Shown one piece after another: positions 777 to 14,011 of a stretch of DNA of 14,948 nucleotides. The notes below the pieces were generated by a model. That model did no database searches. It saw nothing but the letters and a program-made list of their open reading frames with translations, and was not told where the DNA came from. The DNA lies in NCBI GenBank assembly GCA_031254955.1, contig JAIRTK010000052.1, positions 1-14,948 on the forward strand. The letters run 5' to 3'. Origin of the DNA: Opitutaceae bacterium (lineage in GTDB: Bacteria > Verrucomicrobiota > Verrucomicrobiia > Opitutales > Opitutaceae). Both the position numbers and the translations under genes were made by a program. Within the stretch, counting starts at the first letter, position 1. Each line of letters begins with the position of its first letter.

Positions 777-2542
777 TTGTCGTAGAATAGTCGCACGCCG
801 GCGGCGGCGCCGATGAGTGATCGCGCGCGCTGGAGCGCTTTTTTGGTGGCCATTGTCAGGTTTTGCTCGGCGGGGAACACGTTTTCCTCGCCGATGCGTT
901 TGATCAGGCCGGAGCGTTTCAGGACGCCCGCCACGTCGCCGTGCACGCCCGAGATGAGCAGGTGGCGTCCGGTGGTCTTCAACAGGGTGTTGAGCTGGTC
1001 GATGGCGAGCACCGTGGAGCCGTCGAGGTGGCGGGCGTTTTTCATCCGCAGAATCACGACCCGCAGGCCGGGGTCGGCGGCAAGCACGCGGATGTGGTCT
1101 TGGAACAGGTCCGAGGCGCCGAAAAACAAATCGCCCTCGACGTGCACGATGGAAATTTGCGGCTCGGGGCGCGCGACCGGGTTTTCCACGACCACGAAAT
1201 CGCCCGAGTCGCCGATGGCGTATTCGACGAGCGCGGGGCTGGCGGCCTTGATGAGGAAGAGCGCGAGCGAGGCGCCGATGCCCAGGTAGATGGCGGTGTC
1301 GAGGTTGAGCAGGAGCGTGCCGAGGAGGGTGACGAGAAAGACGGCGGTGTCGGAATGCGTCGCGCGGCACACGGTGCGGATGTGCCGGTGGTTGACCATC
1401 CGCGCGGCGACGGGGAGGAGGATCGCGGCGACCGCCGGCAGCGGGATGGCGGCGGCGAGCGGCGCGATGGCCCAGAGGATCGCGCCGAGGCCGAGCGCGG
1501 AGATGATGGCGGCGATTTGCGTGCGCCCGCCCGTCTGCATGTTGACGGCGCTGCGCACGAACGAGCCGGAGCCGGACATCGCGCCGAACAGGCTGGCGGC
1601 GAGGTTGCCCGCGCCGAGGCCGAGGAGTTCCTGGTTGGGGTCGATGCGCTGGCCGGTGGTCGCGGCGATGTTTTTGGCGATGGAAATGGCTTCCAGCATG
1701 CCGATGAGCGCGAGCGTGAGCGCCGGATTCACCAGCGCGGGCAGCGCGGAGAGCATTTTGAGCGGCGCGCCGTCGAAGACGGGCATCGTGGTCGAGAGGC
1801 CGCCGAGTTCGGCCACGGTGCGCACGCCTTGCGCGTGCAGGCGGAGGGCGTGCGTGGCGGCGGTGGCGAGCGCGAGGGTGATGACGCCGCCCGGCCAGCG
1901 CGGGCGCCAGCGTCCCAGCGCGAGCAGCACCGCCAGCGAGCCGGCGCCGAGCGCGAGGGCGGGCGCGTTCACGCGGCCATGAAGCATTTCGGCGGCGGCG
2001 CGCATGACGATGGCGAAGGGTTTGCCGTGCTCGACGCGCACGCCACGGAACACCGGCAGCTGGCCCGCGAGGATGAGCACCGCCGCGCCGGTGCCGTAGC
2101 CGAGGATGACGGAGCGCGAGATGAATTGCGTGATTTTGCCCGCGCGCGCCACCGCCGCGGCGAGTTGGATGGCGCCGGCCAGAAACGCCAGGAGCACCGC
2201 GGTCTGCACGGGGTTGAGCGCGGGCGCGACGCCGCCCGCCACGACGATGGCGATGAAGATCGAGGTGGTGTTGGTCGGGCCGATGACGGTGTGGCGCGAC
2301 GAGCAGAAGAGCGCGGCGACGACCCCGGCGACCATCACGCCCGCGATGACCACGCCCGGCGGCAGCCCGGAGATGAGCGCGAAGCCGATCACTTGCGGCA
2401 GCGACACGAGCGCGATGGTGAGGCCGGCGAGGGTGTCGGCGCGAAACGCGCCCCGGTCGTAGTCTCGCAGTTCGCCGAGGAGGGGGAATTTTCCGGCCAG
2501 CATCCGGGGCCAGGCCGCGGGCGTGGGGAGGCGGAGTTTCAT
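761..2542 (-). CDS. SulP-family inorganic anion (sulfate-type) transporter with C-terminal STAS domain
   Basis: The 593-residue inner-membrane protein carries the N-terminal SulP signature: LPQVIGFALISGLPPG (about 48-63) followed by SSRHTVIGPTNTTS (81-94). It has roughly ten to twelve hydrophobic segments up to about residue 430, including GSGSFVRSAVNMQTGG (324-339), a typical SulP segment. A STAS domain follows at about 463-560, with the DGST loop (507-510) at the expected position. Length and domain order are normal for the family. Substrate cannot be read from sequence; SulP members move sulfate, bicarbonate or other anions. The start is the ATG at 2542-2540, only 4 bases after the stop of enzyme A, so the two are probably co-transcribed and perhaps translationally coupled. 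A sulfatase nearby makes uptake of freed sulfate a reasonable inference. The last few codons are made of the heptamer repeat. Confidence 0.9.
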   Translation of the reverse strand: MKLRLPTPAAWPRMLAGKFPLLGELRDYDRGAFRADTLAGLTIALVSLPQVIGFALISGLPPGVVIAGVMVAGVVAALFCSSRHTVIGPTNTTSIFIAIVVAGGVAPALNPVQTAVLLAFLAGAIQLAAAVARAGKITQFISRSVILGYGTGAAVLILAGQLPVFRGVRVEHGKPFAIVMRAAAEMLHGRVNAPALALGAGSLAVLLALGRWRPRWPGGVITLALATAATHALRLHAQGVRTVAELGGLSTTMPVFDGAPLKMLSALPALVNPALTLALIGMLEAISIAKNIAATTGQRIDPNQELLGLGAGNLAASLFGAMSGSGSFVRSAVNMQTGGRTQIAAIISALGLGAILWAIAPLAAAIPLPAVAAILLPVAARMVNHRHIRTVCRATHSDTAVFLVTLLGTLLLNLDTAIYLGIGASLALFLIKAASPALVEYAIGDSGDFVVVENPVARPEPQISIVHVEGDLFFGASDLFQDHIRVLAADPGLRVVILRMKNARHLDGSTVLAIDQLNTLLKTTGRHLLISGVHGDVAGVLKRSGLIKRIGEENVFPAEQNLTMATKKALQRARSLIGAAAGVRLFYDKASSE

Positions 2543-2546
2543 GCGT

Positions 2547-5054
2547 TCAATGGACTTCGAATTCGTTGATCGAGTAGCCCCAGGGGCTGCCGCGTTTTTT
2601 CATGACGATGCGCACTTGCCGCGCGTGCGTGCCGGCGGGCAGGGCGATGGTGGCGCGGCCTTCCCGTCCGGTGTCGGTCCGCCAGACGGTCCGCCAGTCT
2701 TTCCCGTTGGTGGCGACCCGGATTTCGTAGCTTTTCGCGTAGGCTTTCAGCCAGCCGATGTTGACGCGGGTGAGCGGGTGCACCGCGCCCAGGTCCACTT
2801 CGAGCCATTGGGCGTCGCTGTAGGCGGACGACCAGCGGGTCTTGCCGTCGCCATCGACGGCGTTGGCCGCGGCGAGTGTCTCCGCTTCTTTCGAGGAGCC
2901 GACCGCGCGTTTTTTCAAGGCCAGATTCGGGCGCCGCCCGGATTCGAGCCAGTCGCGCATGGCGTCGATTTTTGTTTGCAGGAGCTGGATTTCTTCGTCG
3001 CGGCGGCGCGGGGCGTGTTTGCGCCACACTTCGCCGCCGTTGTAGGTGATGTTCACCTCGGGATAAAAGTCCCGCAGCAGCGCGATCAGTTTCGTGGCGT
3101 TGTCGATTTCGTCGCGGGCGATGTCGCTGATGGGCGCGAGGGGCTGGCGGGGCGGCGCGGCGCCGGGGGCGGCGCCGGCGGCGAGCATGGCGGTGGCGGC
3201 GCGGTTGAAATGATACTGGGTCGTGAGCAGGCGGCGGTAGAGGTCGGCCCAGCGGCGCATGTCGTTGAGGCGCGAGGCGACGGCGCCGGGAGCGGCGGTT
3301 TTGCAGAGGTCGTCGATTTTGCCGATGGCGGCGTCGAGTTCCGCGAGGACGGTTTTATAATTTTCGGCGACGCCCGGCTTGTGCATCCACGCTTTCGCGT
3401 TTTGGGCCTCCTTGCGTTCGGCCAGCACGTCCGGGACCAGCGGCAGATGATACGGCCCGCCGAACGCCGAGTATTCGGTGAAAATGCCCATGCGCTGATA
3501 CCAGTCCATGATGTGCAGGCCGGTGTCGCCCGGCTGGAAATCCTTCGCGTAGGCGGCGCGGTTCCAGACGACGGCGCGGTCAAACGCCTGCCAGAACTCC
3601 AGCACGCGCGGGGCCAGGACGGCGCCGAAGTCGCGCTCCGCGATGCGCCGGAGCAGCGGCTCGCCGGTCACGGGATCGAGCGGCGCGGGATTTTTTATAT
3701 CAAACGCGCGCGGCTCCCATGTCATGTGCGCGATGACCTCGGCGTTGGGCTGGTAAACCCAGCCTTCAAGCCCGGCCCACCAGAGGATGAAGTTTTTCGC
3801 GTCGATGTCCGCCAGCCGCGCGAGTTTGTATGCGGCGACGGCGGGCAGCGGCATGGCGATGACGGGGTTGGTGCTTTCGCACGCGCCGCCCGCGGAGACC
3901 AGCGGCAGGTAATGCTCGCCGTAGAGGGTCGCGCCCCGCCCGTCCGTCCTGACGGCGGCGGGCGTGAAATTATCGCGGCAGAGGAGCCAGCAGTCGTTGT
4001 TGCCTGCCTCGTTGAAGATCACGGCGACTCCCTCTTGCGCCATTTCGAGCATGAACGCCTTTTCCCCCTCGGGGTCGCCAAAAAACGCGTGCCAGAGCCA
4101 GACCGCCGGCTGGATGTCGCGGTCGCCTATGACCTCCTTCATGATGGCGAGGATTTCCTTGATGCCGTCGGCGCGCGAATGTCCGTAGGGCCGGCCCGTC
4201 TTTATATTCACGAAGGCCTCGGACGGGATGATATTGTAATCCGCGAACGTGCCGTAGAGCACCTTCACGTCGGGGTTTTCCTTCAACGCCTCGCGGTAGC
4301 GTTGCGCGTAGGCCTCGCGGCCTTTGGCGTCGAACGGGCTGATGCCGCGCCTGTTGTTGTTTTTCGGATTGATATAAACAGCCGGGGCGTTTTCGGCCCT
4401 GTCCATCCAGGGGCCTTTTTCCGGCGGGAAACGCACCTCCATCATGACGCCAAGCCCGTAGCGGCGGCGCACGTCGCGGGGCAGGGGCGGCTCGTATTTC
4501 TCGCCCCAGATCACATTGATATAATGACTGGCGTAATACGCGGCCTGCTCGTCCTGGCTCCAGAAGGAGGGCGGCCACTGGTTGTAAATGTGCCCGCCGA
4601 CGCGCAGGCGGAAGGCGGGGCTTCCCGCCTCGTCGAGCGCGCCGATGTCGGACGTGTTTTTTTCGAGGAAGCGGAAGACGCCGTTCATCGCGCCCTTGGG
4701 GCCGGCGCCGGCAATATACAAGCTCCCGCCGCGCGCGGCGAGGTGGTAGCTTTCCGGCTCGGAGGGGTTCAGGCGAAACGGGGCGCGCGCGTGCTCGGCG
4801 GCGATCTCCGGGCTGGTCGCGGGCGTGCCGATATAAATCATCCGGGCTTTTCCCGGCGCGCGGGTGATGGCGGGTTCCTTTCCGAGCCGCCCGGCGAGGG
4901 CTTTTTTCAGTTCTTGCGCCGCCGTTTGCTCCACAATGTCGCCGCCGCTGGCGATGGCCCATTCCCCGGTGAGGGTCTGGGACGCCGCCGGCGAAAACGG
5001 GAGCCACAAGGCGGCGGATAGTATCATGAGTCTGGCGGCGGGTTTCGATTTCAT
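2547..5054 (-). CDS. Secreted putative glycoside hydrolase A: GH67N-like domain, barrel, helical region, F5/8 type C domain
   Basis: I place the start at ATG 5054-5052 because it opens a signal peptide (MKSKPAARLMILSAALWLPF, cleavage near ASQ-TLTG); the frame remains open upstream without protein-like sequence. This gives 835 residues. Residues about 30-135 resemble the alpha/beta domain that precedes the barrel in GH67, GH20, GH84 and GH89 enzymes (EQTAAQELKKAL, then IYIGTP, then GAMNGVFRFLE). A probable TIM barrel (about 145-450) holds HYINVIWGEK, EVRFP, ADYN, AVWLWHAF, NEAGNND (348-354), GGACES (389-394) and EGWVYQPN. A helical region follows. The last 130 residues are a discoidin-type sugar-binding domain (NAVDGDGKTRWSS, WLEVDLG). 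It is paralogous to the gene at 9348-11882. Catalytic residues are not established; acidic residues in NEAGNND, GGACES and ADYN are candidates. I cannot assign a GH family or substrate. It is 4 bases upstream of SulP. Confidence 0.75.
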   Translation of the reverse strand: MKSKPAARLMILSAALWLPFSPAASQTLTGEWAIASGGDIVEQTAAQELKKALAGRLGKEPAITRAPGKARMIYIGTPATSPEIAAEHARAPFRLNPSEPESYHLAARGGSLYIAGAGPKGAMNGVFRFLEKNTSDIGALDEAGSPAFRLRVGGHIYNQWPPSFWSQDEQAAYYASHYINVIWGEKYEPPLPRDVRRRYGLGVMMEVRFPPEKGPWMDRAENAPAVYINPKNNNRRGISPFDAKGREAYAQRYREALKENPDVKVLYGTFADYNIIPSEAFVNIKTGRPYGHSRADGIKEILAIMKEVIGDRDIQPAVWLWHAFFGDPEGEKAFMLEMAQEGVAVIFNEAGNNDCWLLCRDNFTPAAVRTDGRGATLYGEHYLPLVSAGGACESTNPVIAMPLPAVAAYKLARLADIDAKNFILWWAGLEGWVYQPNAEVIAHMTWEPRAFDIKNPAPLDPVTGEPLLRRIAERDFGAVLAPRVLEFWQAFDRAVVWNRAAYAKDFQPGDTGLHIMDWYQRMGIFTEYSAFGGPYHLPLVPDVLAERKEAQNAKAWMHKPGVAENYKTVLAELDAAIGKIDDLCKTAAPGAVASRLNDMRRWADLYRRLLTTQYHFNRAATAMLAAGAAPGAAPPRQPLAPISDIARDEIDNATKLIALLRDFYPEVNITYNGGEVWRKHAPRRRDEEIQLLQTKIDAMRDWLESGRRPNLALKKRAVGSSKEAETLAAANAVDGDGKTRWSSAYSDAQWLEVDLGAVHPLTRVNIGWLKAYAKSYEIRVATNGKDWRTVWRTDTGREGRATIALPAGTHARQVRIVMKKRGSPWGYSINEFEVH

Positions 5055-5057
5055 AAG

Positions 5058-5079
5058 GGCGTTTTGAAAACGCCGTTTT
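5058..5079 (-). promoter_or_regulatory. Overlapping palindromes just upstream of the enzyme A start codon
   Basis: GGCGTTTTGAAAACGCC (5058-5074) is a perfect 8+1+8 palindrome whose edge is 3 bases from the chosen start codon. It overlaps a second palindrome, AAAAC-GCC-GTTTT (5067-5079). It could be an operator read as DNA, or in the transcript a small hairpin that masks the start region, where no good Shine-Dalgarno sequence is seen. Function is inferred from symmetry and position only. Confidence 0.4.
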
Positions 5080-5080
5080 A

Positions 5081-5215
5081 ACCGCGAATGCATGCGAATG
5101 GACGCGAATGGCAGGAGGCAATCAAGCTCTCCTTTATTCCGGTCATTGTCATGATAAGAAATAGTCATGCTCATTGGTGTTTATTGGTATTTATTGGCGT
5201 TCGTTCGCGGTGGGT
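5081..5215. repeat. Two 10-base-period tracts in inverted orientation
   Basis: At 5081-5110 the decamers ACCGCGAATG, CATGCGAATG and GACGCGAATG follow one another. At 5171-5210 the decamers TCATTGGTGT, TTATTGGTAT, TTATTGGCGT and TCGTTCGCGG follow one another; read on the minus strand these become CCGCGAACGA, ACGCCAATAA and so on, the same kind of element pointing the other way. Similar CGCGAATGAACGCGAATG-like intergenic repeats are, from general knowledge, common in Verrucomicrobiota and Planctomycetota. The 60 bases between the tracts show no gene. Confidence 0.75.
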
Positions 5216-5290
5216 TCGCTTGGGTGCCTTTCAAAGTGAGGCCATGCGCCCGGTCTTTTCCCTCTCTCCTCCAGCTTCTTTCCTCTTTCC

Positions 5291-5346
5291 TCTTTATCTT
5301 TATCTTTATCTTTATCTTTATTTTTATCTTTATTTTTATCTTTATC
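5291..5346. repeat. Hexamer tandem tract (TTTATC)n
   Basis: About nine units of TTTATC/TTTTTATC run without interruption, preceded by TTCCTCTTTCCTC pyrimidine sequence. Translated on either strand it gives only Lys-Ile or Asp-Lys repeats, so it is not coding. A shorter tract of the same kind sits in the loop of the inverted repeat at 8908-9346 (about 9110-9150). Confidence 0.85.
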
Positions 5347-5401
5347 CCCCGGCGGCGCCGCCCAAAGGAGAAAGAAAAAACTGAAGCGGTCGCGGCCTGA
5401 C

Positions 5402-5455
5402 GCAAGGTCAGGCCCTGCGTGTCGCGTAGCGAGGTCAGGCGCTGCGCGTCGCGTA
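5402..5455. repeat. Tandem 27-base direct repeat
   Basis: Bases 5402-5428 and 5429-5455 are adjacent copies matching at 24 of 27 positions (GCaAGGTCAGGC followed by CTGCGtGTCGCGTA, with variants at the lower-case and adjacent positions). The pair lies in the gap between the sulfatase stop and the TTTATC tract. No coding potential is seen. Confidence 0.8.
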
Positions 5456-5505
5456 ACTTCAGGGAGAAAGAGGGAAGAGGGCGCGGTCTCGGGGCGGAAC
5501 TGTAT

Positions 5506-5538
5506 ATTTTGCATCACGGCGAAAACAGGGTTGGCGCG
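5506..5538. repeat. Dispersed motif directly downstream of the sulfatase stop codon
   Basis: The segment contains TTTTGCATCACGGCGAAAAC and then AGGGTTGGCG. A near copy lies at 9310-9346, directly after the stop of enzyme B, and a reverse-orientation copy at 8908-8940. On the minus strand the motif reads CGCCAACCCTGTTTTCGCC and begins within about 10 bases of the sulfatase stop codon, so it would be in the 3' end of the transcript. Function is unknown; it has no T-run of a classic terminator. Confidence 0.7.
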
Positions 5539-5546
5539 GAAGTTCA

Positions 5547-6932
5547 TTATTTTTTCCACAGGCTTTTCTTGTATTCATCCAGCGCGCGCTGAAGTTCGGC
5601 GGCTTTTTCCGGTTGCTCGCCGGCGAGGTTGTTTTTTTCCCCGATGTCGTTGTCCAGGTCGAAGAGCTGCGTCACTTTCGGGTTTTCCTTTTGGGAATAA
5701 CGGATGTGGAGCGGGCCGTTGCGGTATTTCCAGCCGCCCGCGCGCACCGCCGTGGTTTCAAAGCCGATGACGGCCCACGGCGACACGGCGCCCGGCTCGC
5801 CGCGCAAAACCGGCATGATGTCGTGCCCGTCGAGCGCGCGCCCCCTCGGCGGGCGGACGCCCGCCAGCGCCAGCGCCGTCGGGAAGATGTCGAGCGCCGA
5901 CAGCACCAGATCGCTTGTCCGCCCGGCGGGAATCACGCCGGGCCACCAAAAAATACCGGGGACGCGCACGCCGCCCTCGTAGCTGGAATGCTTCCCGCCG
6001 CGCAGCGGTTGCGCGGAGCCGCCGTCGGCGCCCTGCGTGGTCCACGGGCCGTTGTCCGACGAAAAGATGACCAGCGTCTTTTTATCGAGGCCGGTTTCGC
6101 GCAGCGCGCGGAAAATCCCGCCGACCGCCCAGTCGATTTCCTCCACGCAATCGCCGTAAAGGCCGCGCGCGCTTTTGCCCCGAAACGCCGCCGACGCGTG
6201 CAGCGGCACGTGCGGCATGGCGGGGGTGAGATAGATAAAAAACGGCGCCGCCTTGTGCTTGTGTATAAAGGCGACGGTCTCCGCCGCGTAGCGTTGCGTA
6301 AGCGTGTCCTGGTCGGCGGGCCACTCGACGCAGTGCTCGCCGCGCATGAGCGGCACCTTGCGCCGGGACAAGTCGCGCTTGTCGCGCGGCGTGGCGCGGT
6401 AGTCGGCGAGGGTTTTGCCCTCGCGCAGCATGATGTTTTCGGCGGGCGGAATGTTTTCCGCGTCGAGCCACATGTCGTTTGAGTAGGGAATCCCGAAATA
6501 ATAATCAAAGCCGCGCCGCGTCGGCAGATAGCGCGGCAGGTGGCCGAGATGCCATTTGCCGATGCACGCGGTGGCGTAGCCGCCGGCTTTGAGCGCCTGC
6601 GCCAGCGTCACCTCGTCGAGGCGCATTCCGTTGTCGCTGTTGGGAAAAAACACGCCGCCCGCGCCGGCGCGCTCCGGGTGGCGCCCGGTCAGCAGTCCCG
6701 CGCGGGAGGCCGAGCACACCGGCGCCGCGGCATAGAAGGAGGTGAGGCGCAGTCCCTCCGCGGCCATCCGGTCGATGTTCGGCGTCTTGATCAGCGGGGA
6801 GCCGTAGCAACCGAGGTCCTGGTAGCCTTGGTCGTCGGTCAATATGACAATGATATTCGGTTTTTCGACAGCGCCGGCGGCGGCGTCCGCCAGCGTCGCC
6901 GCGCCGAGGAGGAACAATAATTCGCGTTTCAT
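5547..6932 (-). CDS. Secreted S1-family (arylsulfatase-type) sulfatase
   Basis: The 461-residue protein starts at a signal peptide (MKRELLFLLGAATLADAAAG, cleavage near residue 20-22) and enters the sulfatase fold at KPNIIVILTDDQG, where Asp33 and Asp34 are expected metal ligands. The active-site motif is C73-S-A-S-R77 followed by AGLLTGR. It is the C-x-(P/A)-x-R pattern whose Cys is converted to formylglycine, here with Ala rather than the commoner Pro. Other conserved sites are GKWHLGH (125-131), PHVPLH (240-245), SSDNGPW (291-297, Asp293/Asn294) and the GGKxxxYEGG segment (312-321). Length is normal. It should hydrolyse sulfate esters in the periplasm or outside the cell. It needs an anaerobic (anSME) or aerobic formylglycine-generating enzyme, not encoded here. 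The substrate is unknown; position between enzyme A and the MFS permease suggests a sulfated glycan. Confidence 0.93.
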   Translation of the reverse strand: MKRELLFLLGAATLADAAAGAVEKPNIIVILTDDQGYQDLGCYGSPLIKTPNIDRMAAEGLRLTSFYAAAPVCSASRAGLLTGRHPERAGAGGVFFPNSDNGMRLDEVTLAQALKAGGYATACIGKWHLGHLPRYLPTRRGFDYYFGIPYSNDMWLDAENIPPAENIMLREGKTLADYRATPRDKRDLSRRKVPLMRGEHCVEWPADQDTLTQRYAAETVAFIHKHKAAPFFIYLTPAMPHVPLHASAAFRGKSARGLYGDCVEEIDWAVGGIFRALRETGLDKKTLVIFSSDNGPWTTQGADGGSAQPLRGGKHSSYEGGVRVPGIFWWPGVIPAGRTSDLVLSALDIFPTALALAGVRPPRGRALDGHDIMPVLRGEPGAVSPWAVIGFETTAVRAGGWKYRNGPLHIRYSQKENPKVTQLFDLDNDIGEKNNLAGEQPEKAAELQRALDEYKKSLWKK

Positions 6933-6935
6933 GGA

Positions 6936-7046
6936 ATGAAATTGGGAATTGGGAGGCAGGAATTGGGAATTAAGGTCTGGAAATCAGGGTTTGGAAATTA
7001 ATGTTTGGAATTGGAAATTAATGTTCGGAAATTAGGGTTTAGAGCA
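6936..7046. repeat. Degenerate AT-rich tandem repeats upstream of the sulfatase
   Basis: Imperfect units of about 14 bases follow one another: GAATTGGGAATT forms first, then GTCTGGAAATCAGG, GTTTGGAAATTAAT, GTTCGGAAATTAGG. This fills the immediate upstream region of the sulfatase. It is much more AT-rich than its surroundings, so a promoter could lie within it, but I cannot pick a -35/-10 pair with confidence. Confidence 0.6.
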
Positions 7047-7089
7047 TCCATCAAAAAACCGCCCAGGTTTTTCTTTTCGATAGATGCTC
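7042..7089. repeat. Short hairpin (GAGCATCCATC ... GATAGATGCTC)
   Basis: GAGCATCCATC (7042-7052) pairs with GATAGATGCTC (7079-7089) at 10 of 11 positions, and the inner AAAAAACC / GGTTTTTC segments extend the stem. It lies between the sulfatase promoter region and the next inverted repeat. It could form a stem in RNA or DNA; no function is evident. Confidence 0.6.
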
Positions 7090-7118
7090 CAAATACAACG
7101 ACATGGTTAATGAGTGCT

Positions 7119-7278
7119 TTTTCGTTTACGCTGACGCATGCCTGGGCCTGACGTAGCGCAGACTTCCAAGTCTGCCCGGCTTGGGCGGCGCGGAGCGCCG
7201 TCGAGCAGGTTGGGAAACCTGCGCTACGAAAACGCCGGACCTTGCGACAGCATCAACGAAAGAGGCTCCAGGCATGTC
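7119..7278. repeat. Nested inverted repeats with CGTAGCGCAG arms
   Basis: Bases 7152-7175 and the complement of 7205-7228 match at 19 of 24 positions, starting with an identical CGTAGCGCAG. Each arm is itself a hairpin: GCAGACTTCCAAGTCTGC and GCAGGTTGGGAAACCTGC. An outer pair, GCATGCCTGGGCCTG (from 7136) and GAGGCTCCAGGCATG (from 7262), flanks them. Sequences of the TAGCGCAGGTTTCC type are, from general knowledge, a dispersed intergenic family in Verrucomicrobiota and Planctomycetota. The rest of the gap up to the MFS stop shows no gene. Confidence 0.8.
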
Positions 7279-7346
7279 TTGCTTCATCTTCAAAGATAAT
7301 TTGACATTCGCGAATGCGCAAATGGCTTGGACGTTGTGTATAAATC

Positions 7347-8837
7347 CTAATTTTTGATTGCTAATTTATTTTTCGGTCTCCGCACGAGGACGAAGAGGAT
7401 GACGGCGGAGGCGAGGTGCATGAAGCCCATCGCGAGAAACATTTGCCCAAGCGTGAAGGGAAAACCGGGCTGGCCGGCGCGTTTGAGCAGGAGGTTGAAG
7501 CCGATCGTGCCCGCCGCGCCGAAGGTGCCGGCGATGCCCCACACGCTGGCCACGTTGCCCATCGGGAATATCTCCGCGATGATCGGCGCGAGGCCGGACA
7601 TCCAGCTCATGCACACCGCCGCGATGACGCAAAACGCCACGATGACCAGCGCAAGCCCCTTGATCGAAACGACGCCGAGCAACGGCAGCGCGAACGACAC
7701 GTCGCGCAGGTGCGGAATCGCGATGCACAACGGCGCGGCGATGGACACGAGGTAGAGCAGGTTTTTGCGCCCGAGGAGCGGGTCGCGCCGGTGGCGTTTG
7801 GCAAAAATGTCGGAAAGCACGGAGGCGCCCAGCCCGCCGATGAACGAGGCGAGGAAAATGAAGCCGACGACGCCGAGGCTGCCGAAGGCGACCGCCTGTT
7901 GTTTTTCGAGGTAGCCGGGCAGCCAGTAGAGGATGAAATTCCACACCGGATCGCTCACCAGCCGCGCGAGCACGATGCCCCACAACGCGCGCGTGCCCCA
8001 GAGTCGCGTCCAAGGAAGCGGCGGCGCGACGGCGACGGCGGCGGCAGCGGCAGCGGGGGCATCAGCGGCGGCGGTGGCACTGCCGGCGGTTGGGGCGGCG
8101 GTGCCGGCGGCGTGGGTGGCGGTGCTGGCAGCGGTGCCGGCGGCTGGGGCGGCATTTTTTTCGACATGAGTCGAGTTAAGTCGAGTTAAGTCGGGAGAGG
8201 CGCCGGCGTCGGACGCGGCTGGCGCGGCTGGCGCCGGGTCGCGATAACTGAGCCACCAGACGGCGGCGATGAGCAGGCCGGCGAGGCCGGGCAGGACAAA
8301 CGCATGGCGCCACGTGCCGGCGGTGGCGGTGAGCCAGACGACGATGGAAGCGGTGGCGATATTGCCCACGCTGCCGCCGACGCTGCACAGGTTCATGTAG
8401 AGGCCGCGGTTGTGGCGCGGCGCCCAGGCGGTGGCGACGCGAATGCTCACCGGCGCCAGCCCCGGCTCCGCCACGCCGAGCAGCGCGCGGAACACAAACA
8501 GCATCGCAAAACCGTGCGCCAGCCCGCAGCCGATGGTGGCCACCGACCACAACCCCGCGAAAATGAGCAGCGCGGCGCGCGGCCCGATTTTGTCCACCAC
8601 CCAGCCGGAGAGCATGAGCGCGCCGGCGTAGCAGAGGAGGAAGGCGTTGACGATGTCGCCGTAGCGGCTCTGGTCGAGGCCGAGCGTCGGCTCGGCGATG
8701 AGCGTCTCCTGCAAAACCGACAGCGTGGTGCGGTCAAGGTAGTTGAGAAAGGAGACGCAGAAGAGCAGCGCGAGGACGAACCAGCGGAAGGTGGCGTCGG
8801 CGAGCAGGGCGCGGGTTTTCGGCAGGAGCTGGGTCAT
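7347..8837 (-). CDS. MFS transporter, anion:cation symporter type (hexuronate/ExuT-like)
   Basis: The 496-residue inner-membrane protein opens like ExuT and other ACS-family permeases: RWFVLALLFCVSFLNYLDRTTLSV (about 18-41), then GWVVDKIGPR (78-87), the MFS motif A between TM2 and TM3. About six hydrophobic helices lie on each side of a cytoplasmic loop. The family moves organic anions such as hexuronates, glucarate or phthalate with protons; an acidic sugar is the likely cargo here, by family resemblance and context. The central loop (about 201-276) is unusual: rich in Ala, Pro and Thr, about 75 residues long, with a decamer-repeat insertion encoding LTRLNST. Upstream there is no clear ribosome-binding site. 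The gene stands alone, with more than 400 bases of repeats on either side. Confidence 0.87.
   Translation of the reverse strand: MTQLLPKTRALLADATFRWFVLALLFCVSFLNYLDRTTLSVLQETLIAEPTLGLDQSRYGDIVNAFLLCYAGALMLSGWVVDKIGPRAALLIFAGLWSVATIGCGLAHGFAMLFVFRALLGVAEPGLAPVSIRVATAWAPRHNRGLYMNLCSVGGSVGNIATASIVVWLTATAGTWRHAFVLPGLAGLLIAAVWWLSYRDPAPAAPAASDAGASPDLTRLNSTHVEKNAAPAAGTAASTATHAAGTAAPTAGSATAAADAPAAAAAAVAVAPPLPWTRLWGTRALWGIVLARLVSDPVWNFILYWLPGYLEKQQAVAFGSLGVVGFIFLASFIGGLGASVLSDIFAKRHRRDPLLGRKNLLYLVSIAAPLCIAIPHLRDVSFALPLLGVVSIKGLALVIVAFCVIAAVCMSWMSGLAPIIAEIFPMGNVASVWGIAGTFGAAGTIGFNLLLKRAGQPGFPFTLGQMFLAMGFMHLASAVILFVLVRRPKNKLAIKN
8164..8193. repeat. In-frame decamer repeat inside the MFS central loop
   Basis: Three consecutive decamers, ACATGAGTCG-like then two identical TCGAGTTAAG units (8171-8190), occur within the coding sequence and are translated on the minus strand as part of DLTRLNSTHVEK. 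The surrounding loop codons are GC-rich Ala/Pro/Gly codons, so this AT-richer patch stands out as a possible repeat insertion tolerated in a flexible loop. Confidence 0.65.
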
Positions 8838-8850
8838 GGGGAGCGGCGGG

Positions 8851-8886
8851 ATTTTGGGAGCGGGACGGATTTTGGGAGCGTGACGG
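8851..8886. repeat. Tandem 18-base direct repeat upstream of the MFS gene
   Basis: ATTTTGGGAGCGGGACGG (8851-8868) is followed at once by a copy with one change (8869-8886). It begins 14 bases upstream of the MFS start codon and so lies in its 5' leader or promoter. It may be a regulatory site pair or a simple duplication. Confidence 0.7.
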
Positions 8887-8907
8887 GCAAGGGGAAATGT
8901 TAACAGA

Positions 8908-9346
8908 CGTGTTCGCCAGCCCTGTTTTCGCAGTCACTGAGGTTGCGCGGAGCCGGCTGGGAATCCTCTCCGAGGCTTCCGTCGGGCGGAGAAGGCGGTT
9001 TGCCTTTCATGGGAAAAAGCGGGGGCGTCATGGGGAACAGCGGGGCGTTGTCGCGGAGGCCGTGGAGCGGTGCAACTCAACGTTGTGCCACTCCCTCTTT
9101 CTTCTTTCCTGTTTATATTTATATTTATCTTTATCTTTCTCTTTATCTTTCGTCAGGAACAGGCAGAAAATTCCGGGCGAAGCGAGAAGCCTGACAAGAG
9201 GAAAGATAAAGAATAAAGAGGAAAGATTCCGGCAGTGACACAACGTTGAATTACATCCGCCTCGGAGAAGCCTCCCCGCCGGCTCCGGCCAGTCGTTAAC
9301 GTGCTTTGGATTTTGCTTCACGGCGAAAACAAGATTGGCGAACACG
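8908..9346. repeat. Large nested imperfect inverted repeat with a pyrimidine/TTTATC core
   Basis: Three pairs of arms nest in order. Outer: 8908-8934 against 9316-9346 (CGTGTTCGCCA and TTGTTTTCGC-like sequence). Middle: 8948-8976 against 9259-9287, 25 of 29 matching (CGGAGCCGGC ... CTCCGAGGC). Inner: 9069-9094 against 9232-9258, sharing CAACGTTGTG and CACT. The centre has a pyrimidine tract with TTTATC units (about 9096-9151) opposed by GAAAGATAAAG purine sequence (about 9198-9230). The left half carries an extra asymmetric segment (8966-9014) that recurs near 14484-14534. No protein is plausible. It fills the gap between MFS and enzyme B. Confidence 0.8.
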
Positions 9347-9347
9347 C

Positions 9348-11882
9348 CTAATACACTTTGATTTCCCGCAACGCATACCCCCGCTGGTGCGGGGCATGGC
9401 GGAGACAGTTGAGGCGCACATAACGCGCGGCGGAGCCGGGCGGCAGGGGCAGCGTGATGTTGCCCTCGGTGCCGTCCGTCATGCGGATGGCGGGGCGCCA
9501 GCTTTTCGCGTCGTCGGAGAGTTCGATGGTGTATTCCACGGCAAAGGCCGGCCCCCAGCCGAGGCGCGCCAGTTCGAGCGGACGGGTCGCGCCAAGGTCG
9601 ATTTGCAGCCACGCGGGCGCATCGCCGCGCGGGGACCACAGGGTCAGCGCGTCGCCATCGACCGCGTTGTGCACGCCGCGCTTTTTCGGGTCGCCGACGG
9701 AGGAGGCGTCCGCGCGGCGGCCTTTGGCGAGGTCGAAGCGCCCGGCCAGTTCGAGTTCCATGCCGGTGAGCTTGTCCCGCAGGCTGCGGGTTTCGTTCAA
9801 AACACTGCCCCGGTTTTCGATGACGCCGGCGTGGCCCTCGGTGAGGTTCATGTTCGGGGCGAAGGCCGGCAGGAGCGCGAGGATGGCGCGGGTGTTGCGG
9901 ATGCTCTCGCGCGTCAGCGGCGCGATGGCGCGGCGGGCGGCGGCGGGGTCGGCCTTGCCGCCGCCGAGCGTGTTGATGAGCGCGAGGCCTTTTAAATGAT
10001 GATACTGGGCCTCCCAGAGGAGCACGGCGAGCTGCGTCCAGTTATATAATTGTTGCATCCGGTCTTTCGGCGTGCCGGCTTTCGCGGATGCGAGCAGGCT
10101 CGCGAGGCCGGCCTGGGCGGCGCGCAAGCGGGCGAGCGCGGCCTCGTAGTTTGCCAGCGTGTAGTCGTTGGCGCCCCAGGCGCAGGAATTTTCAAAGCGT
10201 TTTGTATTGATGAGCGCCTCCGCGGTCACGGGTTCGAGAAACGCGCCCTGGAAAAGAATCTCGGTGTAGGTGCCGAGGCGTTGATACCAATTGTAGATGT
10301 GCAGGCCGTTTTCCGCCGGGTCGCCCTGCGCCTCGCGATTGGGTTTTTTATAAAGCGGCAGGCCGGTGACGAGCGCGGCGTCGAAATTTTTATAATATTC
10401 AACCATTCCCGGCGCAAGCTCCGGGCCGAAATCGCGCGCGGCGAGGCGCTCCAGCAGGGGCGCGACGGCGTTGAAATCCTTCGAGGCGTATCGGGCGATT
10501 TCGTCTTCGTCCGCCCAGGTCAGCTCGGCGATGACCTCCAGGTTGGGCTGGTAGGTCCAGCCCTCGCAGCTTGCCCACCAGAGCACGAAGTCGCGCACGC
10601 CGGCCCGCGCCAGCAGGGCGAGCTTGTGCGCCGCGATGCGCGGCAGCGGCATGCCGATGACGGGGTTCACGCTCTCGCAGGCGCCGCCGGCGGAGACCAG
10701 CGAGAGATATTCCCCTCCGTGGACGATGCGCCCGCCACGGGTTTTCATCGCCGCGTCGTCGAAATTATCGAGGCTGAACACCCAGTTGTCATTGTTTCCG
10801 GCCTCGTTATACATAAGGCCGAAGCCCTCCTCCGCCAGCCGGTCCATGAAACGGAGTTCCCGTCCGCGCTGGAACCAAAACGCCTGCCAGAGCCAGGCGC
10901 GCGGGACGATGCCGGAATCCTGGCCGACGGCCTCGCGCATGATTTTTAATATTTCGACGATGGTGTCCTCGATGCTGTGCGCGTAGGGTTCGCCGGTGAA
11001 GGCGTTGACGCTGTCGGTGGTCTCGGGGAGCGCGTTGTAATCCGAGAACATGTCATAAAGGATCTTCAGGTCGGGGTTTTCCTTGTATAGTTTTTTATAT
11101 TGGTCGAGATACCACCGGCGCCCGGCGGGGGCGAAGGGGCTGATGACGCGCAGGCCCTCGGCGTCGTGCCAGAGATTGGGGCGCTTTTGGGCGGGGACTA
11201 TGCTGAAAATCGCTTCGCGGTTGGCCGGGTCGTCCAGCCATTCCCGGCTGGCGTTTTGCGGGAAACGCACCTCGGCCATGACGCCGATGCCGTATTTGCG
11301 GCGCACGTCATGGGGAAGCGGCGGGCGTTTTTTCTCGCCCCAGACCACATTGATATAATGGCGCGCATAATAGCGGGCCTGGTCGTCGTGCGACCAGCCG
11401 GGCGGCGGGGTCTGGTTGCACTCGTTTCCGCCGGCGCGCCAGCGGAAATTGGGGCGTCCGGCGAAGTCGAGCCTGTCCACGTTTGCGCGGTTGCGGTCGA
11501 GGATGCGGAAGGCGGCGTTCATCGCGCCCTTCGGGGTCGCGCCGACGGCGTAGAGGCGGTTGCCGTCGAGGCGCGCGTGAAAGGATTCCGGCGAGTCCGG
11601 GGCGAGGCGGAACGGCGCGCGGGCGTGCGCGGCGGCGATGAGGCTGCTGTCCGCCACGGTGCCGATGACGAGGGCGGGGCGCGCGGGGTCGGCGGCGGAC
11701 TCGGGCCGGGGCGCGTCCAGCCGCGCGCCGAAGCGCCGCGCGGCCTCGTCGCGGAACATGCCGGCGGCGGTTTGCTCCAGCTCGTCGCCGCCCGTCAACA
11801 ATTGCCAGCGCCCGTCCAGGTCGAGCGCGCGCGCGGCGGGGCAGAGCAGCAGGCATGAGGCGGCGGCGATGGTTTTTCCCAT
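9348..11882 (-). CDS. Secreted putative glycoside hydrolase B, paralogue of enzyme A
   Basis: The start is set at ATG 11882-11880, which opens a signal peptide (MGKTIAAASCLLLCPAARA, then LDLDGRW); the upstream open frame is translated repeat. The product has 844 residues and the same order as enzyme A: an N-terminal alpha/beta domain (GDELEQTAAGMF, LVIGTV, PKGAMNAAFRILD), a probable TIM barrel, a helical region, and a C-terminal discoidin domain (NAVDGDALTLWS, WLQIDLG, ARYVRLNC). Blocks shared almost exactly with A include HYINVxWGEK, PPLPxDVRRxYGxGVM, EVRFP, NEAGNND (359-365), GGACES (399-404), EGWxYQPNxEVIA and GLHIxxWYQRxG. Differences cluster in the segment after EVRFP and in the helical region, which may mean different substrates. 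No family name can be given from sequence alone. The stop codon is followed directly by a dispersed motif also found after the sulfatase. Confidence 0.75.
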   Translation of the reverse strand: MGKTIAAASCLLLCPAARALDLDGRWQLLTGGDELEQTAAGMFRDEAARRFGARLDAPRPESAADPARPALVIGTVADSSLIAAAHARAPFRLAPDSPESFHARLDGNRLYAVGATPKGAMNAAFRILDRNRANVDRLDFAGRPNFRWRAGGNECNQTPPPGWSHDDQARYYARHYINVVWGEKKRPPLPHDVRRKYGIGVMAEVRFPQNASREWLDDPANREAIFSIVPAQKRPNLWHDAEGLRVISPFAPAGRRWYLDQYKKLYKENPDLKILYDMFSDYNALPETTDSVNAFTGEPYAHSIEDTIVEILKIMREAVGQDSGIVPRAWLWQAFWFQRGRELRFMDRLAEEGFGLMYNEAGNNDNWVFSLDNFDDAAMKTRGGRIVHGGEYLSLVSAGGACESVNPVIGMPLPRIAAHKLALLARAGVRDFVLWWASCEGWTYQPNLEVIAELTWADEDEIARYASKDFNAVAPLLERLAARDFGPELAPGMVEYYKNFDAALVTGLPLYKKPNREAQGDPAENGLHIYNWYQRLGTYTEILFQGAFLEPVTAEALINTKRFENSCAWGANDYTLANYEAALARLRAAQAGLASLLASAKAGTPKDRMQQLYNWTQLAVLLWEAQYHHLKGLALINTLGGGKADPAAARRAIAPLTRESIRNTRAILALLPAFAPNMNLTEGHAGVIENRGSVLNETRSLRDKLTGMELELAGRFDLAKGRRADASSVGDPKKRGVHNAVDGDALTLWSPRGDAPAWLQIDLGATRPLELARLGWGPAFAVEYTIELSDDAKSWRPAIRMTDGTEGNITLPLPPGSAARYVRLNCLRHAPHQRGYALREIKVY

Positions 11883-12246: not shown

Positions 12247-12427
12247 GGCGCTCGCGCAAGGAGCGGCGGCGTCCCGCCGCCGGACGCGAGCCACGCGAGC
12301 GCCCATTCGTTTACCCACGGGTTTTCGCGCAGCCCTGCACCTGCGGGCTTTCGCGCGGTCCAAGCGCAAACGGGCGAGGCTTCGCCTCGTCCGGCGACGG
12401 GACGTCGCCGCTCCTTGCGCGAGTGCC
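12247..12427. repeat. Hairpin element copy 2 (40-base arms), same family as 208-512
   Basis: Bases 12247-12286 and the complement of 12388-12427 match at 37 of 40 positions. The arm contains CGCAAGGAGCGGCGGCGTCC, closely similar to the arm of the element at 270-310 (GCGCAAGGAGGGGCGGCGTC). The interiors of the two copies differ, although both carry CACGGGTTTTCG and GGGCGAGG. So arms are conserved and loops have diverged. Confidence 0.88.
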
Positions 12428-12740
12428 CTTTCTGATCCCTTTTTCTTTTTCATCTTTTTTCCTTCCTCATCCCTTTTTCTCCCCCGTCTCTTTTAATTTT
12501 GACACCACTTTGAATCTGACCCGCGTCGGGGCGGGTTTGCATTTTTGGCTTGCGAACGGGCGGGCTTGTGCGGTTTCGCTTTCGCCACAGTTGCCAAGTT
12601 GCCACATCAAAGCGGCGTTTCCCTGTCGTTATCCTTCCTCTTTATTATTTCCGTCATTTCTTCCGCCTGATTCTTTTTTATCGCTCCGTTTTTGACGAAA
12701 GAGAACGGGGACGAAGAAAAAGAACGGGGACGATTCGACA
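12428..12740. other. Pyrimidine-rich stretch then purine-rich 19-base-spaced repeat; no gene
   Basis: From about 12428 to 12495 the plus strand is almost all C and T (CCCTTTTTCTTTTTC and similar). At 12702-12733 it becomes purine-rich, with AGAACGGGGACGA present twice, 19 bases apart. The frame of the following GH130 gene is open through the purine part, but the residues it would give (Lys/Glu/Arg/Gly-rich) are not part of the enzyme. The promoter of the GH130 gene should lie in this stretch; I cannot place it securely. Confidence 0.5.
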
Positions 12741-12784
12741 GAGGGAAACACCGCTTCGATGGCGCCTTTTTTCTCCGCCATTGC

Positions 12785-14011
12785 ATGACCATGAACCAAT
12801 CCCGTCTTCCTCAAATACGCACGCTGGACGCGCCCATCCTCGCGCCACGCACCGGCACGCCTTGGGCCGACACCATGGTGCTCAATCCCGCCATCATCGA
12901 CGAGCCGGGGTCGGCGCGCCTGCACATGCTTTTCCGGGCGAGCGGGCCGTGGCCGCAGGTGCGGACGCCGGGCCGCCCGCCGCCGTATCCGATTTTTCTC
13001 GGCTACGCGTGGAGCGATGATTTTGGCGCGACGTGGCGCGCGGATTTTTCGCGGCCCTGCCTGGCGCCGCGCTTGGAAACCGACGCGGAAAAAATCCGCA
13101 TCCGCAACCGCGCCGGGGAAATGGTCGTGAATCACGCCAACGGCTGCGTCGAGGACCCGCGCCTGTTCCGCATGGAGGGCCGGCTTTATCTGAGCACGGC
13201 GTGCCGCATGTTTGCGCCGGGGCCGTATTGGGAGCGGGACGACCCGATGCAGTGCGCGCCCGGTTGGGCGGCAGCTGCGGCGCACATCTTTGGGCGGGCC
13301 GCGCGCGAGAACCTGACGATTTCCGTGCTGTGGGAAGTCGATCTGACGCGGCTCAAGGCGGGCGATTACGAGCGCGCGTTTGTTTACGTGGCGCCGCTGA
13401 CCGACCCGGAGCGCGGCGACAACCGCGACGCGTTTTTGTTTTCCGAAAAAATGGTCATCGATGGGCGCGTGCGCCATGTCTGCCTGCATCGCCCTGCGCA
13501 GCCCGGCGCTTACGGCGCGGAGTTCGCGGCGCTGCAACCGGCGATCTTCATGGCGGCGGCGGAGCGGCTGGAGGACTTGGGGACGCCGCGCGCGGCGCAC
13601 CGGCTGCTGGCGGAACCGCGGTTCGAGTGGGAAGGCGACCGCATCGGCGCGAGCTGGGCCCCGCTGCCGCTCGGCGGTGGCGAATGGCTGCTGCCGTATC
13701 ATGGCAAGCAGGACGCGGTGGTCGGCTACACGCAGTCGTTCATGATTCTCAAGCCCGGCGGGGACGGCTGGCCGGAAGTCGCGCACCGCTGCCCGGACCG
13801 GTTGATGTTCGCGCAAAAACGCTGGGAACTCGACGGGCGTTTCAAGACGCCGTGCGTGTTCACCTGCGGCGGCGTCGTGCGCGACGGCGCCCTGCTCATG
13901 ACCTACGGCGCCGCCGACACGGTGGCGGGCGCGGCGTGGACGGACATGGCGGAACTCGTGGCGCATGTCCGCCGTTACGACGCGGCTGGGAAGGCCGGCG
14001 GCGGCGGATGA
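12785..14011 (+). CDS. GH130-type beta-mannoside phosphorylase or hydrolase
   Basis: I start at ATG 12785 (ATG 12791, two codons on, is equally possible), because homologous sequence begins shortly after it; the product has 408 residues. The five-bladed propeller landmarks of the GH130/PF04041 family are visible: LNPAIIDEPGS with LHMLFRA, then NHANGCVEDPRLF with the Asp of EDPR as expected general acid (about residue 124), WLLPYHG, and near the end LMTYGAADT. There is no signal peptide, so it should act in the cytoplasm on imported oligosaccharide, as GH130 phosphorylases for mannosyl-glucose, mannobiose or mannosyl-GlcNAc do. Specificity, and phosphorolysis against hydrolysis, cannot be told by eye. 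It carries segments unlike the standard enzyme (about 140-175 on, APGPYWERDDPMQCAPG), so a divergent subfamily is likely. It is divergent from enzyme B and followed by a strong hairpin. Confidence 0.78.
   Translation: MTMNQSRLPQIRTLDAPILAPRTGTPWADTMVLNPAIIDEPGSARLHMLFRASGPWPQVRTPGRPPPYPIFLGYAWSDDFGATWRADFSRPCLAPRLETDAEKIRIRNRAGEMVVNHANGCVEDPRLFRMEGRLYLSTACRMFAPGPYWERDDPMQCAPGWAAAAAHIFGRAARENLTISVLWEVDLTRLKAGDYERAFVYVAPLTDPERGDNRDAFLFSEKMVIDGRVRHVCLHRPAQPGAYGAEFAALQPAIFMAAAERLEDLGTPRAAHRLLAEPRFEWEGDRIGASWAPLPLGGGEWLLPYHGKQDAVVGYTQSFMILKPGGDGWPEVAHRCPDRLMFAQKRWELDGRFKTPCVFTCGGVVRDGALLMTYGAADTVAGAAWTDMAELVAHVRRYDAAGKAGGGG

Follow-up and report, generated by a model that had tools for sequence, protein, structure and literature searches.

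Adjacent acids after barrel strand 4 (DD in GH84, DE in GH20) are used for substrate-assisted cleavage by the hexosaminidases of these two glycoside hydrolase (GH) families, and GH67 catalysis combines an acid residue with carboxylates that activate water. The GH138 enzyme BP0997 targets pectin rhamnogalacturonan II, as stated in its PDB title. GH67 and GH115, both families of alpha-glucuronidases, act on side chains and have no active-site conservation between them, according to PMC3879575. With these systems we compare two paralogous proteins, A and B, encoded on the minus strand of a 14,948-nucleotide contig (JAIRTK010000052.1, assembly GCA_031254955.1) of an Opitutaceae bacterium in the phylum Verrucomicrobiota. 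This whole stretch, hereafter the window, corresponds to contig C432 in a draft genome of 3.58 Mb and 69% completeness; all positions are those of the window unless a locus is named. The A/B family is unclassified by every library tested (Pfam, NCBIfam, and PDB sequences) and has a known kind of fold. Our preferred reading, to which we give a probability of about 0.4, is that A and B belong to a small unclassified glycosidase family built like GH67, GH115, and GH138, most likely uronidases acting on a sulfated glycan, with the clades to which they belong dividing the work.

Proteins A and B and their relatives

Protein A (835 residues, 2547..5054) and protein B (844 residues, 9348..11882) both lie in open frames. 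The mechanically called open reading frames (ORFs) begin further upstream, at 5174 and 12104; the starts at 5054 and 11882 yield N-termini that look hydrophobic by eye, from which both proteins are predicted to be secreted. An earlier note on the window had described the two as diverged paralogues in one locus, sharing a set of near-invariant blocks, a GH67N-like domain, a probable barrel, a helical region, and a terminal F5/8 type C domain. The paralogy is borne out by 42% identity over the full length (359 of 849 positions; 570 bits in BLASTP), and so are the blocks, each of six patterns occurring exactly once per protein: NEAGNND (at residue 348 of A and 359 of B), GGACES (389 and 399), HYINVxWGEK (177 and 175), EGWxYQPN (430 and 440), GLHIxxWYQRxG (512 and 526), and (S/A)DYN (271 and 280). 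Across the family the exact strings are less widespread: of the 40 retrieved proteins, a set that counts the window copies and one fragment, 20 contain NEAGNND and 27 contain GGACES. The domain claim stood in part. A CBM32-type F5/8 type C domain (PF00754) passes the Pfam cut-off at the C-terminus of both A (2550..2930, 5.6e-21) and B (9351..9734, 1.1e-14), and GH67N (PF03648) passes it in A (33.2 bits against a cut-off of 24.3, residues 42-129), but GH67N is not among the Pfam matches of B at E<=1. The two C-terminal domains are only 38% identical (48/126); that of A has its nearest solved counterpart in a discoidin-type domain of the glucanase/chitosanase kind (E 4.7e-23), and chitosan, considered as its ligand from that match, was not adopted.

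Apart from these domains, the Pfam matches at E<=1 comprise a second F5/8 type C model in each protein and, below their cut-offs, GH20b in A and DUF3999 in B; NCBIfam gave no match for either at the same threshold. Neither A nor B matches the catalytic domains of GH67 (PF07488, also without a match in the window's own genome) or GH115 (PF15979), nor DUF4838, which we take to be GH163, in Pfam at E<=1. In searches of PDB sequences both proteins match significantly through the C-terminal domain only, the other rows standing at E ~0.3; a nine-sequence core profile (A3) gave 9 matches at E<=10, with no GH138 or GH115 chain among them and with GH67 matched in its N-terminal domain only (E 0.52). 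As far as these libraries go, the claim that the pair fits no nameable GH family therefore survives: neither Pfam nor NCBIfam yields a catalytic family for it, and the PDB sequences yield no significant match beyond the C-terminal domain. No place in the plasmid collection covers 80% of A; 43 plasmid records match it, the best 20 of the 43 in the C-terminal region. Literature searches on GH138, on GH115/GH67 residues, on the C-terminal domain, and on any new family sharing this fold or host retrieved no paper recognisable by its title or abstract start as treating the A/B family, in a coverage that omits most subscription journals.

Searches of 5.8 billion proteins identified at least 40 distinct family clusters, two of which are A and B themselves; this is a lower bound, about 8000 candidates having been scored per protein search (19, 31, and 32 rows). 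Two peptide patterns scanned against species genomes returned ten loci. Six of them (L005-L010) match over most of the family, L011 is a piece at a contig edge, and L012-L014 match in the N-terminal domain only. The hosts of the six are two Opitutaceae (L008 in a genome of the window's genus, G438, and L005 in another genus, G456), Candidatus Symbiothrix, a Planctomycetota bacterium, Jiangella, and Phytoactinopolyspora. Symbiothrix is a termite-gut symbiont, and a termite-gut origin of the window itself is a guess. The match to the Phytoactinopolyspora family gene (L010, 10001-12477) is split in two, and the protein listed for this gene is short and flagged as partial; stretches of N, read as X, also occur at that locus. 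The window's own genome carries four family copies. Within its taxonomic family, 3 of 200 sampled genomes, its own included, match at E<=1e-20; across the phylum, in a search that scored only two candidates per genome, 38 of 387 sampled genomes have some match at E<=0.001, of full length only in the window's own.

In a FastTree phylogeny of the cores (calculated without P0001 and P0020, which are window copies, the fragment P0034, and P0035-P0040), A and B fall in different clades, each with a support of 1.000. Paired copies are found on the window contig, on contig C16 (L035), and at L008; two further pairs are inferred from partners whose contigs are equal in size (8,816 and 23,949). The partners come from different clades in 5/5 pairs, two of the five being these inferred ones; L006, L007, L009, and L010 have a single copy each. 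The recurrence of pairs, each made up of different clades, lends support to the suggestion that A and B may perform complementary steps on one glycan.

Predicted fold, distant kin, and candidate acids

The fold was modelled for residues 28-712 of A (pLDDT 92.4; A number = core number + 27) and comprises an N-terminal zincin-like (GH67N) domain (approximately residues 30-145, 4620..4967, boundaries estimated from the strands and helices of the model), a (beta/alpha)8 barrel (approximately 150-450, 3705..4607) with eight DSSP strands between core residues 123 and 397, and a helical domain (approximately 460-705, 2940..3677, from DSSP). The barrel and helical region expected earlier thus both appear in the model of A. 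Among solved structures the closest in fold are GH138, GH67, and GH115, followed by GH84/GH20, with identities of about 14% or less (12-14% in the Foldseek matches to the first three). GH138 and GH67 lie outside the best 50 VIA matches, a placement not used as evidence.

Profile comparisons with hhalign, whose E-values are those of single comparisons, aligned the family with GH67 at 94.1% (E 1.3e-7) and with GH115 at 58.4% (E 9.7e-5); with a 33-row alignment, A2, the figures were 87.8% and 96.9%. The strongest partner was family X (98.8%, E 4.1e-17, 508 columns; 98.6% with A2), a set of unannotated Verrucomicrobiota proteins (L024 910-3243, L033 550-2340, L040 376-2538, L063, and others). Decoys (one reversed and five column-shuffled against four targets, n=24) reached at most 1.2%, and an unrelated GH5 barrel 0.3%. 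By these profiles the A/B family is distantly related to GH67, GH115, and family X. The last was first met in two ways, by a match covering the barrel's end and the beginning of the helical part and by a match to the GH67 model; it aligns with the GH67 profile at 91.7%. At E<=1e-30 it occurs in 24 of 115 sampled genomes of the phylum, with up to nine matches per genome, and the two of its members that were scanned against Pfam and NCBIfam matched no family at or near the cut-off. The earlier note's view that the pair fits no nameable family holds in that no catalytic family matches, but is qualified by the fold, which is not new, and by the profiles, which point to distant kinship with GH67 and GH115.

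Six acids at or after the barrel-strand ends (Glu185, Glu206, Asp272, Glu349, Glu393, and Glu430 of A) do not vary in any of the 33 sequences of alignment A2, which leaves out P0001 and P0020 (A and B themselves, already present as window references) and the fragment P0034, and includes the truncated P0033. Among the six are the three that had been proposed as catalytic. In the model of A, Asp272 of ADYN (codon 4239..4241; core 245) follows strand 4 (core 236-242) by three residues, Glu349 of NEAGNND (4008..4010; core 322) directly follows strand 6 (core 317-321), and Glu393 of GGACES (3876..3878; core 366) lies in the loop after strand 7 (core 355-359), seven residues on. Their aligned counterparts in B are Asp281 of SDYN (11040..11042), Glu360 (10803..10805), and Glu403 (10674..10676). 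Asp272 is followed by Tyr273 in 33/33, and thus no adjacent acid pair stands after strand 4. In a GH67 relative (L038), acids that we presume from their spacing to be catalytic follow strands 4 and 6 and close strand 7, in a model of low local confidence (pLDDT 62.3) that lends weak support; if the GH67 acids are those we take them to be, the candidates of A may, weakly, be said to follow the same three strands.

Gene neighbourhoods and possible activity

On the minus strand the gene order is B (11882-9348), a major facilitator superfamily (MFS) transporter (8837-7347; PF07690, 2.8e-39), a predicted secreted sulfatase (6932-5547; PF00884, 2.1e-65), A (5054-2547), and, directly downstream of A, a SulP sulfate permease with a STAS domain (2542-761; PF00916, 7.5e-67). 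The sulfatase ORF contains CSASR, which we take to be the sulfatase signature, and the best NCBIfam match of the MFS protein is the D-galactonate transporter subfamily TIGR00893 (127.1 bits, below its cut-off of 395). Divergent from B lies a GH130-like gene (12692..14011, plus strand; PF04041, 1.9e-12, over profile positions 200-318 of 320 only) that has no match in any of eight other loci. Genes for hexuronate catabolism are present in the window's own genome. The window contains no tRNA and no Rfam match in searches for both. Inverted repeats at 270-313/431-474, 12247-12286/12388-12427, and 8952-9017/14483-14548 resemble dispersed palindromic elements and are partly common to both window ends (272-331 and 12248-12307 are 83% alike); a six-base T-rich unit forms short tandem arrays upstream of A (5291-5346) and beyond the 3' end of B (9112-9150), and a repetitive stretch inside the MFS gene (8017-8144) encodes an Ala-rich loop.

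The same order of MFS transporter (75%), sulfatase (75%), A homologue (73%), and SulP permease (82%) is found at L005. The L005 sulfatase (2232-4136) carries an in-frame C-terminal F5/8 type C domain, absent from the window sulfatase, that is 75% identical to that of the neighbouring A homologue and 74% to that of A itself, against 38% between those of A and B; sulfatase and A would thereby be tied to one ligand in the L005 lineage. An MFS homologue also precedes the family genes at L008 and L011; at the latter, in the same assembly as L005, an ORF that by eye resembles a TonB-dependent receptor (832-3987) lies between the two. Beside the Jiangella family gene (L009) are a ROK regulator, a peptide-type ABC importer, an epimerase, a weakly GH43-like protein, two sulfatases, and a mannonate-dehydratase-like enolase (396.6 bits, cut-off 550); kinship of the GH43-like protein with the window's GH130 was dropped for want of a significant alignment. 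Sulfatase matches occur at L010 as well, and five of the eight other loci (L006, L007, L008, L011, and L035) have none at E<=1e-3.

With moderate confidence, we take uronidase-like chemistry to be the likeliest, acting on a glycan that carries sulfate at least wherever a sulfatase is linked. A and B would each release an alpha-linked uronic acid from a sulfated glycan, or cleave a bond next to such an acid; the operon's own sulfatase would remove sulfate, the MFS permease would import the released uronate, and SulP would move sulfate. Asp272 after strand 4 might serve as the acid, with Glu349 and Glu393 (strands 6 and 7) activating water as in GH67, and the two clades would probably act at different positions or on different linkages within a single glycan. 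Two observations on the acids weigh against this assignment: at strand 4 it is Tyr273, not Asp272, that stands opposite the family X Glu matching the GH67 acid, and the pairing of Glu393 with the Glu of strand 7 in family X, seen with alignment A2, did not recur in a larger alignment and has been withdrawn as support.

The bond cut within the same superfamily could instead carry a neutral or N-acetylated sugar, as with hexosaminidases or mannosidases, rather than a uronic acid. The nearest folds include GH20 and GH84 (the latter having the highest VIA Z among the matches listed), a GH130-like gene adjoins, and the C-terminal domain of A is closest to a chitosanase/glucanase domain; but the acid pair of GH84 and GH20 is Asp-Tyr in every aligned member, and A-type C-terminal domains are common in other proteins, as the plasmid records show, so that we consider this rather unlikely. 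That CAZy curators would place A and B as outlying members of GH138, GH115, or GH67 is improbable: the nearest folds and the detectable profile kinship to GH67 and GH115 point that way, against which stand the missing Pfam catalytic matches, the core-profile search of PDB sequences, structural identities of 12-14%, and the absence of GH67 motif strings from the family.

Quite improbable, too, is an endo-acting role on a backbone, beta-1,4-glucan-like or other, alongside the GH5 module of some relatives. The family core is fused to GH5 modules in four relatives (P0005, P0008, P0010, and P0013), that of P0005 being close to GH5 cellulases, and L005 holds a GH5 gene with an F5/8 type C domain; yet the profile kin GH67 and GH115 are side-chain enzymes according to PMC3879575. 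The invariant set, rich in tryptophan and strand-end acids, also looks more pocket-like. A very small chance is left to A and B being non-catalytic binding proteins: we know of no tested member of the family, and none surfaced in the searches made, but six strand-end acids would hardly be invariant across 33 sequences.

Uronidases on a sulfated glycan stay our preferred reading. More doubtfully, A and B could be the founding pair of a new CAZy uronidase family on such a glycan, the paired clades making successive or position-specific cuts, and together with family X an overlooked branch linking GH67, GH115, and GH138. If the preferred reading is right, an unnamed branch of GH67/GH115/GH138-type enzymes would be added to the enzymes for sulfated glycans bearing uronic acids, which A and B may help to dismantle. 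The operon of this branch, which in some lineages includes a sulfatase, would point to a class of substrates that can be tested, and family X, with its spread through the sampled phylum genomes, would receive its first functional hint.

Comparison with known glycosidases

GH138 is the top Foldseek match of the A model (E 2.4e-19 over 803 alignment columns), at 13% identity, TM 0.53, and a root-mean-square deviation of 9.1 (PDB 6hzg/6hzf/6hze); its chain, presumably in the PDB sequence file since it is in the structure library, is absent from the core-profile matches. The GH67 alpha-glucuronidases (PDB 1l8n and 1gqi) resemble the family in fold and are its kin by profile; their GH67N domain is over cut-off in A and not listed for B. 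In line with the earlier note, which saw no blocks typical of GH67, four motif strings are missing: NHWDN, SEGQPGP, GPxDFQ, and TQEYLG, found in 23, 19, 10, and 19 of 27 GH67 proteins, occur in none of the 40 family proteins, A and B included. The larger residue-level alignment with GH67 ends before strand 6, and strands 6-7 thus fall outside it. GH115 (PDB 4zmh, 4c90, 4c91, and 7pug) is near in fold and profile, but its PF15979 is not matched. The GH84/GH20 hexosaminidases have a similar fold, and the family has Asp-Tyr where these carry their acid pair after strand 4. The profile match of family X to the A/B family spans both the barrel and the helical domain, and the two differ in the strand-4 motif, which is SEN in family X and DYN in the A/B family.
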